DNA from: Sphingomonas sp. EC-HK361
GTDB taxonomy: Bacteria > Pseudomonadota > Alphaproteobacteria > Sphingomonadales > Sphingomonadaceae
Reading direction: 5' to 3'
Assembly: GCF_902498785.1 (NCBI RefSeq)
Contig: NZ_LR701494.1
Span: 1-64,000, forward strand
Length of the DNA stretch: 64,000 nt
The notes beneath the pieces were generated by a model. The model made no database searches, was not told where the DNA came from, and saw only the letters and a list, made by a program, of their open reading frames with translations. The stretch's first letter is position 1. Each line of letters starts with the position of its first letter. Shown here one piece after another: positions 26,486 to 31,621 of the stretch. A program made the translations under genes and the position numbers.

Positions 26486-27724
26486 CTAGCTTCGGTAATC
26501 GGCGTTGATCGAGATGTAGCCGTGGGTCAGGTCGCACGTCCAAACGGTCGCGCGGCCATCGCCCAGCCCAAGATCGACCCCGATTTCGATCTCTTTGCCC
26601 TTCAGATGGGCGGAGACTGGCGCCTCATCATAGCCTTCGACCGCCAGACCGTCGCGTGCGACCTCCGTATCGCCGAAGCGGATCGACAGGCTGTCGCGCT
26701 CGGCCGGCTCGCCTGCCTTACCGACCGCCATGACAACACGGCCCCAATTCGCGTCCTCGCCCGCGATCGCGGTCTTCACCAGCGGCGAGTTCGCGATGCT
26801 CATCGCGATGCGGTGGGCCGATCGGTCGCTCTCGGCGCCGGTCACAGCAATCTCGATCAGCTTCGTCGCGCCCTCGCCGTCGCGCACCACGAGCATCGCG
26901 AGCTGGCGGCACAGGTCGTTCAGCGCCGAGCGGAAGGCATCGGCGCCGGGGCTGTCATCATCGGTAAGCGGCACGTTGCCCGCCTTGCCGGTCGCGAAGG
27001 CGAGCACGGTGTCGCTGGTCGAGGTGTCGCCGTCCACCGTGATGCACGAGAAGCTCGGCGCGTTGGCGGAGAGCAGCGCGCGCTGGAGCCAGTCCGCCTC
27101 CACCGCCGCATCGGTGAAGATGAAGCCAAGCATCGTGGCCATATCCGGCGCGATCATCCCCGATCCCTTGATGATGCCGGCGAGCGTCACCGTGCGCCCG
27201 TCGACGACCGCAGTGGTCACCGCGCCCTTGGGATAGGTGTCGGTCGTCCCGATCGTCTCCGCCGCCGCGCGCCAGTCGGCGGGGTCGGCGGTGAACGCCG
27301 CATCAAGCCCGGCTTCGGCCTTGTCGATCGGCAGCGGCACGCCGATCACCCCTGTAGAGGCGACGAACACATCGGAAGGCTTGCACCCGAGATGCCCCGC
27401 CGTCCGCGCCGCGATCGCCTCCACCGCTGCCCGCCCGCGGCTGCCGGTAAAGGCGTTCGAATTGCCCGCGTTGACGACGAGCGCGCGCGCCTCGCCCAGA
27501 ACCAGCGCCTTGCGGCACCACTCCACTTCGGGAGAGGGGCATTTGCTCTGCGTTAGCACGCCCGCGACCGCGGTGCCGGGATCGACCGTCACGAAGGTCA
27601 GATCGCACCGATCCCAGGTCTTATATCGCGCGCGCGCGACGCGAACCGACACGCCCGCGATGGCTGGCATTTCGGGGAAGGGCAAGGCGAGCGGGGAGAT
27701 GGACGTGTGCATGCAGGGCGACAT
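26486..27724 (-). CDS. argJ: Bifunctional ornithine acetyltransferase/N-acetylglutamate synthase ArgJ
   Basis: About 412 residues of arginine biosynthesis. It moves the acetyl group from N-acetylornithine to glutamate and in many bacteria also makes N-acetylglutamate from acetyl-CoA. The autocleavage and catalytic site is visible as KGSGMIAPDMATMLGFIFTDA, cleaved before the Thr of ATML. NAGNSNAFTGSRG and the C-terminal NWGRVVMAVGKAG are also typical. The start is placed at 27724 (MSPCMHTS); the ATG at 27712 is about equally possible. The toxin-antitoxin promoter lies in the divergent gap. Confidence 0.94.
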   Translation of the reverse strand: MSPCMHTSISPLALPFPEMPAIAGVSVRVARARYKTWDRCDLTFVTVDPGTAVAGVLTQSKCPSPEVEWCRKALVLGEARALVVNAGNSNAFTGSRGRAAVEAIAARTAGHLGCKPSDVFVASTGVIGVPLPIDKAEAGLDAAFTADPADWRAAAETIGTTDTYPKGAVTTAVVDGRTVTLAGIIKGSGMIAPDMATMLGFIFTDAAVEADWLQRALLSANAPSFSCITVDGDTSTSDTVLAFATGKAGNVPLTDDDSPGADAFRSALNDLCRQLAMLVVRDGEGATKLIEIAVTGAESDRSAHRIAMSIANSPLVKTAIAGEDANWGRVVMAVGKAGEPAERDSLSIRFGDTEVARDGLAVEGYDEAPVSAHLKGKEIEIGVDLGLGDGRATVWTCDLTHGYISINADYRS

Positions 27725-27756
27725 AATCCGCCCAAGACGAATGTCACGGCCGAAAG

Positions 27757-27785
27757 CTTGACCAAGAGGGTTGGCCAAGCCATCT
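27757..27785 (+). promoter_or_regulatory. Promoter of the toxin-antitoxin pair
   Basis: CTTGAC (27757-27762), a 17-base spacer and CCATCT (27780-27785). The expected start site is within a base or two of the antitoxin ATG at 27793, and no Shine-Dalgarno precedes that ATG, so the antitoxin message may be leaderless. Confidence 0.5.
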
Positions 27786-27792
27786 TCGTTCC

Positions 27793-28095
27793 ATGACGAT
27801 TCACGTCAACATCGGAGAAGCCAAGACGCGATTGTCCGAACTGGTCGCGGCGGCCGTGCGCGGCGAAGACGTCGTTCTTGCCAAGGCCGGCGAACCGCAG
27901 GTGCGGCTGATTCCGGTCAGCGGCATCGAGGCAAGCCAGCAGGCGCGCGAGCGGATCGCGACCGGTCGTCGCGCGGCTATCGGGATGTGGCGCCACAAAT
28001 TCCAGACGATGCCGCAATTCGATATCCGGTCGATGACGATGTCGGATGCCGAGTGGGAAGAGCATTATCGGAAGAAATTTGGCGATCCTGCTTGA
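27793..28095 (+). CDS. Phd/YefM-family antitoxin
   Basis: A 100-residue antitoxin of the Phd/YefM family. The N-terminal DNA-binding fold is clear (VNIGEAKTRLSELVAAAVRGEDVVLAKAG, cut here at AAVRG and continuing). The C-terminal part (from about residue 50) is charged and aromatic (MWRHKF, AEWEEHYRKKF) and is the expected toxin-binding tail. It overlaps the PIN toxin gene by 17 bases. Such antitoxins usually repress their own promoter together with the toxin; a promoter is visible directly upstream. Confidence 0.85.
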   Translation: MTIHVNIGEAKTRLSELVAAAVRGEDVVLAKAGEPQVRLIPVSGIEASQQARERIATGRRAAIGMWRHKFQTMPQFDIRSMTMSDAEWEEHYRKKFGDPA

Positions 28096-28453
28096 TACCC
28101 ATGCGCTGGTCTGGGTGGGGATTGGCGATCCCCGGCTGAGTGAGGCGGCGCGAAACGCTATCCTCGATCCGGACCAGCAGGTTCTCATCAGCGCGGTGAC
28201 GGCCTACGAGTTCGTCGACCTCAATCGACGCGGGCGTTTCGGTGCGGACTTGCCATTTGCGGAAATCGCGACGCAACTGGGCGCGTCGATCATGGACTAT
28301 CCAGCTGCATGCTCGGTCATCGCCGGGTTGTTGCCACTGCTGCACCTCGATCCCGTCGACCGCATGCTAATCGCCTTTGCCGTTCATTCGGACCTGCCGA
28401 TCGTGACGGCAGACGCCACGATCCGCCAGTATCCCGTGCGCGTCATCTGGTAA
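28079..28453 (+). CDS. VapC-like PIN-domain toxin
   Basis: About 124 residues with the PIN-domain acidic residues in order: LLDTHALVW (first Asp), TAYEF (Glu), DPVDRMLIA (Asp) and VTADATI (Asp). PIN toxins are ribonucleases that cut tRNA or rRNA when freed from the antitoxin. The TTG at 28079 is chosen because GGAAG lies at 28070-28074 and the protein then starts at the first PIN strand; an ATG at 28046 is the alternative. The pair sits between argJ and secA and may maintain itself as a small selfish or stress module. Confidence 0.85.
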   Translation: MAILLDTHALVWVGIGDPRLSEAARNAILDPDQQVLISAVTAYEFVDLNRRGRFGADLPFAEIATQLGASIMDYPAACSVIAGLLPLLHLDPVDRMLIAFAVHSDLPIVTADATIRQYPVRVIW

Positions 28454-28463
28454 GCGAATTGGA

Positions 28464-28492
28464 TTGGACGGAAGGCCGCCGACTTCCTATGT
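28464..28492 (+). promoter_or_regulatory. Possible promoter of the small ORF-secA unit
   Basis: TTGGAC (28464-28469), a 17-base spacer and CTATGT (28487-28492), close to the alphaproteobacterial consensus. The expected start site falls at about 28499-28503, that is at or just before the ATG of the small ORF (28503), which has no Shine-Dalgarno; translation may be leaderless. Confidence 0.4.
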
Positions 28493-28502
28493 CCCGCCTG
28501 CG

Positions 28503-28760
28503 ATGAACCTTCTGCTCCTTCTCTCTGCCCTGATTTCGGCGCTGACCGGCGTCGGTGGCGGCGTGCGGGATGGGCAGGCGGTCCAGGCGGTGGCGGAGCG
28601 GCGGGCGACTGCAGTTGCGGCCGCTACGGTCGTGCGGACACAGACCATTCGCCCTGTAATGTCTTTGCCGACGCTTGCCCGGCAGGCGTTCCCGACCGCA
28701 TTTGTCCTGGTTTTCGTGAATCCGTTTGCTCCGATTTATGCGAGCCGCCGGCGCGAGTAG
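28503..28760 (+). CDS. Small secretory ORF upstream of secA, candidate secretion monitor (arrest peptide)
   Basis: An 85-residue predicted protein, no family recognised. It starts with a hydrophobic Sec-signal-like segment ([16 protein letters not shown]). An Ala/Val/Arg-rich middle and a hydrophobic C-terminal stretch follow, ending [15 protein letters not shown]. The stop is 110 bases before the secA ATG. Bases 28703-28711, coding for residues about 67-70, are complementary to bases 28854-28862 that include the secA Shine-Dalgarno. A secreted short ORF just ahead of secA with its 3' coding part able to mask the secA ribosome site is the arrangement of E. coli secM. The SecM and RAPP-type arrest motifs are not present, so a new arrest motif would be needed. 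The role is inferred; the ORF itself is quite likely real. Confidence 0.62.
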
Positions 28761-28862
28761 CGAGATGCCCGTCGCCCGAAATTGCGGCGATCCTCGTGAC
28801 ATTTTCTCCCAATCGGCGCGGCCCGCTTTCACGCAGGCCCGCGCGTTCAGACCATCAGGACA
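28703..28862 (+). promoter_or_regulatory. Candidate RNA pairing that masks the secA Shine-Dalgarno
   Basis: TGTCCTGGT (28703-28711) can pair with ATCAGGACA (28854-28862) over nine positions: seven consecutive Watson-Crick pairs, one G-U and one further A-U. The second arm contains the AGGA (28857-28860) that serves the secA ATG at 28871. The first arm lies 15-17 codons before the end of the small ORF, where a ribosome halted near its C-terminus would cover or open it. No folding calculation was possible. Confidence 0.35.
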
Positions 28863-28870
28863 CCACCGTC

Positions 28871-31621
<2,751 letters not shown>

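Follow-up and report, generated by a model that had tools for sequence, protein, structure and literature searches.

The small ORF directly upstream of secA in the window (the whole stretch of 64,000 nucleotides of DNA analysed here) belongs to a family of short peptides that we find at secA in many sphingomonads, and its product is probably a leader peptide that senses export and acts in cis on this gene. An earlier note on the same DNA had read the ORF as a possible SecM-like secretion monitor, with an arrest motif near its C-terminus and an RNA structure masking the start of secA, an interpretation that is partly supported by the present analysis. The components of the locus from which that reading started (an 85-codon ORF with no Shine-Dalgarno seen ahead of its ATG, a gap of 110 bases to the secA ATG and a promoter-like element before the ORF) are all present as claimed (Table 1). 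Further upstream, positions 27793-28453 hold a toxin-antitoxin pair (a Phd/YefM-like antitoxin, just under the Pfam cut-off, and a PIN-domain toxin) between the leader ORF and an opposite-strand ORF, 26486-27778, that looks like argJ. At one sampled locus, L109, the leader peptide is missing and an ORF that by eye resembles the C-terminus of the window PIN toxin lies directly before secA, ending 101 nt from it, as if toxin-antitoxin modules were landing at the pre-secA site.

Table 1 Features of the secA leader locus in the window
Feature	Position	Strand	Remarks
Promoter-like TTGGAC-N17-CTATGT	28464..28492	+	TTGGAC 28464-28469, 17-nt spacer, CTATGT 28487-28492; ten bases from the end of the −10 to the ATG at 28503
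secA leader peptide ORF	28503..28760	+	85 codons plus TAG
Hydrophobic signal-like N-terminus, first 24 codons	28503..28574	+	Delimited by column information; median dN/dS 0.15
5′ pairing arm of the earlier note, TGTCCTGGT	28703..28711	+	Codons 67-70; pairs with 28854-28862
C-terminal R-R-R-E, TAG stop and next base C	28746..28761	+	Member of the [D/E]-R-x-x-E-TAG-C signature
Hairpin followed by CATTTTCT, just past the leader stop; weak terminator-like candidate	28761..28807	+	
3′ pairing arm of the earlier note, ATCAGGACA	28854..28862	+	Takes in the secA Shine-Dalgarno AGGA, 28857-28860
secA	28871..31621	+	ATG at 28871; Pfam SecA_DEAD (2.1e-129), P-loop_SecA and other SecA domains, with a query that began at the sixth codon

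Compared with genome contigs, the 85-residue peptide matched at least three Sphingomonas loci, 45–48% identical and each with secA just downstream. A profile built from four peptides (the window and these three loci) was searched in 397 whole genomes, the family of Sphingomonas sp. Leaf339 (one of the three relatives), and returned at least 27 matches, 27 of 27 lying just upstream of secA; because few candidates were scored per genome, this count is a lower bound and many members were missed. Searched with SecA, the same genomes gave matches in 387 of the 397, and 150 leaders were sampled from the SecA matches listed, those most like the window SecA. Together with 30 loci from the peptide search and the window itself, they made up 181 loci and 153 distinct leaders, 152 of which were analysed after one short leader was dropped. 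An iterated profile recognized a relative in 88 of these 152 distinct sphingomonad secA leaders (window included), a count that, like all leader counts given here, comes from related and non-independent sequences. Among leaders chosen by SecA similarity alone, 84 of the 149 usable ones carried the uORF and 65 did not, so secA manages without such a uORF in many relatives.

A class-wide profile search of 385 genomes matched 12, of which five were full-length matches, all at secA and all from genomes already in the family sample, and seven were partial matches elsewhere, at loci without secA. The class sample also contained 28 other secA loci (SecA 63–70% identical), at none of which a relative was found at E below 0.01. 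On a poorly resolved SecA tree (152 rows by 140 columns, no outgroup), leader presence took 24 changes compared to 48.9 with shuffled labels, which marks presence as clustered but patchy on a tree that does not separate gain from loss. Based on the class-wide matches, the 28 negative loci and the tree, the leader peptide looks confined to this sphingomonad family and patchy within it. In the searches run, every full-length relative lay immediately upstream of secA.

The 88 peptides measure 82–95 residues (mean 88.3, s.d. 2.9), end 73–156 nt before secA (median 99.5 nt) and are conserved at both ends, in the hydrophobic N-terminus and in the last five residues, around a variable, faster-evolving middle of ~50 residues. 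Codon-level comparison of 40 pairs of relatives (which share sequences and are not mutually independent) gave a median dN/dS of 0.36 overall, with regional medians of 0.15 (N-terminus), 0.47 (middle) and 0.23 (last 12 codons); the leader ORF is a conserved coding sequence under purifying selection. Long open frames are plentiful in GC-rich genomes, but the relatives, the purifying selection and the constant length of the peptide refute a chance ORF, an explanation to which we give practically no weight. On sequence grounds, the window ORF exceeds chance by virtue of its relatives upstream of secA and the selection acting on them. The alignment across sphingomonads thus bears out the expected variable middle and conserved C-terminus, both by dN/dS over the 40 pairs and when relatives are selected without their last 25 residues (see below). 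A signal-bearing leader peptide of secA in this group is likewise supported, in 88 of the 152 leaders, where hydrophobicity is the sole basis for calling the signal: the N-terminus is strongly hydrophobic and under purifying selection, an AxA motif falls at residues 15–32 in 62 of the 88, and the n-region of the window signal has no positive charge. If arrest occurred at the stop, the spacer between signal and putative arrest site would exceed 30 residues, with 82–95 residues in all and an N-terminal block of about the first 24.

The placement of the arrest motif proposed in the earlier note needs refining. A conserved C-terminus was found, but its conserved part is an R-x-x-E at the stop codon and not the hydrophobic FVNPFAPIY stretch. 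Counted from the C-terminus, Glu stands at −1 in 69 of the 88 peptides, Arg at −4 in 80 and Asp or Glu at −5 in 65; 19 endings lack the Glu (8 of them have Val), R(−4) is absent in 8, and the window ORF departs from the signature in having Ser rather than D/E at −5 and GAG rather than GAA as its last codon. Since the profile could itself favour this ending, the last 25 residues were removed before ORFs were re-selected. This procedure recovered 64 ORFs, all among the 88, and R(−4) and E(−1) occurred together in 42 of them compared to 0 of 329 other ORFs in the same leaders; TAG stops were likewise more frequent (46/64) than in other ORFs (60/323).

Selection appears to extend to the stop codon and its surroundings. 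Stops among the 88 members are TAG in 69, TAA in 13 and TGA in 6; of the 61 genes that served as background (from the window and three Sphingomonas loci), 13 end in TAG. As a termination signal, UAG is weak when the next base is C. A C follows TAG in 54 of the 88 members (54 of the 69 TAG stops, compared to 1 of 19 other stops), but it also follows 6 of the 13 background TAG stops, so the link between TAG and C is only partly special. The last Glu codon is GAA in 62 members and GAG in 7, against 495 GAA and 1035 GAG in the background, and Glu at −5 is encoded by GAG in 21 members and GAA in one, which makes the GAA preference particular to the last codon. Nucleotide conservation drops sharply a few bases past the stop. 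Stop identity, the next base, the GAA bias and this drop in conservation together point to selection on events that take place with the stop codon in the ribosomal A site, and the text of PMC5373646 describes the fourth base, after the stop codon, as important for termination.

This anatomy (signal, variable middle and conserved stop-proximal end) suggests an arrest-type export monitor acting at termination, and it is by joining it to published criteria, to arrest data for X-stop leaders and to the TnaC model (all compared below) that we read the family as termination-arrest export monitors. Specifically, nascent R-x-x-E at the peptidyl-transferase centre would slow release at a UAG in poor context and so bring the ribosome to a pause while the stop codon occupies the A site. 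The ~60 residues that follow the signal would suffice for the signal to reach SecA/SecY during the pause; active export would then pull the chain and end the pause, and limiting export would lengthen it and increase secA expression. Coupling between the pause and secA would not proceed via conserved Shine-Dalgarno unmasking and would more likely involve a blocked terminator or blocked Rho access in the ~100-nt spacer, as for TnaC, or protection of the mRNA.

A small protein exported to the periplasm or membrane, with an ordinary function there and merely sharing the secA operon, would account for the signal-like N-terminus and its AxA motif, but we consider it unlikely given that full-length relatives occur at secA only (in the searches run), that the middle is variable while the extreme C-terminus is conserved, and that the stop and the last codon are biased. 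Domain searches also speak against such a protein: the window ORF had no Pfam match up to E 10, none of 77 scanned members (of the 88) matched Pfam, and two NCBIfam matches of the window member (17.8 and 15.8 bits) fall far under their cut-offs of 116 and 247; one further member had a weak NCBIfam match.

A monitor that copies SecM in mechanism, with C-terminal stalling that opens an RNA structure hiding the secA Shine-Dalgarno, is in our judgement quite improbable. In the window, the two arms (Table 1) do pair as the earlier note had claimed, through nine pairs of which seven are consecutive Watson-Crick, all nine occur in the predicted minimum-energy fold, and removing the uORF end lifts predicted Shine-Dalgarno accessibility from 0.33 to 0.57. 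That fold is nevertheless no better than those of shuffled sequences (z −0.28; 78 of 200 shuffles as good). About 2% of shuffled copies contain a Watson-Crick run of at least seven, which predicts one or two such leaders among the 88; the window is the one leader of the 88 with a run of seven, and its pairing is thus at chance level. Nor are the arms conserved, the longest Watson-Crick run being 3–5 in the seven close relatives looked up. Over all 88 leaders, masking was tested by longest complementary run, which came out at chance, and by partition function, which gave Shine-Dalgarno accessibilities of 0.510 with the uORF end and 0.530 without it (shuffles 0.496 and 0.501), and removing the uORF end raised accessibility by more than 0.1 in 13 of the 88 compared to 16% of shuffles. 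Accessibility therefore equals that of shuffled controls, and the proposed masking of the secA Shine-Dalgarno is not supported across the family. The 5′ arm also lies 16–19 codons before the stop and would have been left behind by any ribosome that stalls on the stop codon.

Further folding analyses agree. Spacer folding z averaged −0.33 (3/88 below −2) in leaders with the uORF and −0.60 (6/64 below −2) in uORF-less leaders, and by this measure neither a conserved spacer hairpin nor excess RNA structure was found in the 88 leaders. Rfam returned nothing up to E 5 on positions 28000-29200. A candidate hairpin around the stop, CGC-GAATA-GCG, drawn from the consensus, was discarded as unsupported (permutation z 1.3 for mean stem length; at least four pairs in 14 leaders compared to 10.6 expected). 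The accessibility, folding-z and stop-hairpin tests thus revealed no RNA element that is conserved and that stalling could alter.

The spacer bears on another explanation, transcription attenuation of secA (by an intrinsic terminator or Rho) coupled to leader translation but without export sensing. Terminator-like hairpins end within 60 nt of the stop in 18 of the 88 leaders compared to 6.9 in dinucleotide shuffles (s.d. 2.8, maximum 14) at the loosest of five hairpin thresholds, the four other thresholds give 6–10 compared to 1.6–5.8, C exceeds G in the spacer (2858 to 2030), and good-looking terminators occur at, for example, L045, L079 and L143. However, uORF-less leaders are at least as enriched at looser thresholds (22/64 compared to 6.2 at score 16 or more; with strong T-tails, no enrichment, 3/64 compared to 2.1), so the hairpin excess is not clearly tied to the uORF, and C outnumbers G to a similar degree in these leaders (1900 to 1448). 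When hairpins are counted over the entire spacer at T 3.0 or more, the excess disappears (13 compared to 11.8), and the terminator scan finds none in the window, where the hairpin just past the leader stop is absent both from the scan and from the 45 best hits listed. Attenuation would also leave the conserved signal sequence and the strict C-terminus unexplained, and we rate it as improbable. The mild and unspecific enrichment of stop-proximal, terminator-like hairpins is a weak lead. At L045, L079, L143, L121 and L023, good-looking intrinsic terminators begin 0–12 nt past the leader stop, close enough to be blocked by a ribosome positioned on that codon.

Initiation of the leader peptide appears to follow two modes. 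A stricter version of the promoter pattern (TGGAC, 14–19 nt, YTA-like −10) is present in 52 of the 88 relatives no more than 75 nt from the start and in none of the 300-nt control stretches further upstream, so that, at the level of sequence patterns, the promoter is beyond chance; a sigma-70 consensus scan reported no promoter at the window element. Transcription typically starts ~7 nt past the −10, and leaderless translation favours AUG. Among the 57 ATG-start members, 42 have a −10 (looser pattern) ending no more than 12 nt before the start, and 0 of these 42 have a Shine-Dalgarno-like 4-mer. TTG-start members (26) show a close −10 in none, a farther −10 in 15 and no pattern in 11, and 16 of the 26 carry a Shine-Dalgarno-like 4-mer compared to 15% at random positions. 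ATG-start members therefore look mostly leaderless and TTG-start members look leadered, often with a Shine-Dalgarno. Starts were called by a script that prefers ATG, and finding two start modes for the same peptide supports these calls. The close −10 pattern among ATG-start members and the two modes suggest that the mRNA from which the window ORF is translated has no leader or almost none.

Some leaders that lack the R-x-x-E peptide carry another one in its place. L160 and L165 encode a peptide that begins MNVYIASFMLLLFNAVG, has a variable middle and ends GDKLEH-x-EGAP-stop; the signal of this second class reads MN-x-YIASFMLL or similar. Searching the 397 genomes with one EGAP peptide matched 17 at E 0.01 or better, and the best 8 of the 17 (L221-L228, E 2.7e-5 or better) are each found 103–109 nt upstream of secA, with the EGAP ending in 8 of 8 and TAG-C in 6 of 8. 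As Pro-stop endings of other leaders arrest at termination, the presence of such endings at this place supports the termination-arrest reading of R-x-x-E. Separately, L151 has a secA uORF with a signal-like start that ends HFTGKP-TGA, 133 nt before secA, possibly another Pro-stop leader. A bolder account joins these elements: a peptide translated without a leader would, through its nascent R-x-x-E, block release at UAG-C and raise secA by preventing termination by RNA polymerase or Rho in the spacer, and R-x-x-E-stop and E-G-A-P-stop would have replaced each other in place with the UAG-C context mostly kept. As a whole, this account is tentative and rather doubtful.

To our knowledge, secA feedback via an arrest peptide has been worked out in detail only for SecM of E. 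coli. If the export-sensing reading is true, the sphingomonad peptides would form a second, unrelated class, with an acidic last residue, a bias in the stop context and translation that is predicted to be leaderless; export sensing would then be buildable on inhibited termination with a different peptide code, and the 88 natural variants would help to work out how release factor 1 is blocked by a nascent chain. Screens of annotated genes could miss such ORFs because many have a TTG start or no Shine-Dalgarno, and the screen of PMC10987492, the largest that we found, relied on annotated genes. Its main text does not name an R-x-x-E-stop motif: the strings Sphingomonadales, EGAP and DRARE are absent from it, and its only match to “sphingo” is Sphingobacteriaceae, although the supplements, outside this scope, might list the cluster. 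In the literature searched, no paper on a sphingomonad secA leader was evident by title or abstract start; the texts compared also include PMC7897499 and PMC9973294.

Comparison with known systems places the family between several of them. Like SecM of E. coli and its relatives, the peptide lies upstream of secA with a signal-like N-terminus and a conserved C-terminus. SecM also has a variable middle. Unlike SecM (170 residues), the sphingomonad peptide is half the length, at ~88 residues, its motif sits at the stop codon and it is often leaderless by prediction. The F-x4-W-I-x4-G-I-R-A-G-P motif is absent from the last 30 positions of the 88 relatives, and the counterpart of the SecM stem-loop over the secA Shine-Dalgarno is not conserved, is at chance level and is predicted in the window alone. 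ApdP, the RAPP/RQH family and CutF of Rhodobacter capsulatus are likewise exported or signal-bearing leader peptides, with ApdP and CutF found in alphaproteobacteria, as here. These peptides, however, have RAPP-like or proline-rich motifs and lack a stop-adjacent R-x-x-E, and ApdP and CutF precede secDF or cutO; no R-A-P-P-like motif was found in the last 30 positions of our 88 relatives. TnaC is not known to carry an export signal. As described in the text of PMC10941005, the ribosome that stays on the TnaC leader stop denies Rho access to the spacer. Arrest at the stop codon (putative for our family) and a conserved last residue are shared with TnaC of E. coli, which senses tryptophan and ends Arg23-Pro24-UGA, whereas the sphingomonad leader ends R-x-x-E.

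A further comparison is with the X-stop leaders of PMC10987492. The criteria for monitoring substrates given there (a uORF of a sec or yidC gene, a signal, a conserved C-terminus and a spacer of more than 30 residues) describe features that the sphingomonad family has, with its signal predicted from hydrophobicity: it is a small uORF without annotated function directly upstream of a sec gene, and its C-terminus is conserved among homologues. According to the text of PMC10987492, peptidyl-tRNA builds up in vitro on leaders with the endings NSP-stop, NAP-stop and DGMK-stop in a manner that needs the stop codon, Pro-stop leaders of secA and secDF arrest at the stop codon, and toeprints place that codon in the A site (for DGMK-stop, as the likelier reading). 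Theirs come from Bacteroidota and Firmicutes and end in Pro or Lys, whereas ours form an alphaproteobacterial family ending in Glu, within R-x-x-E. Both are leaders of a sec gene with a signal and with conserved residues that reach the stop codon. A last residue of Pro, or an ending in GMK, is seen here only in the EGAP-stop class, with E last in 69 of the 88, and it is this second class that stands closer to the X-stop leaders described in PMC10987492 than the R-x-x-E class does.
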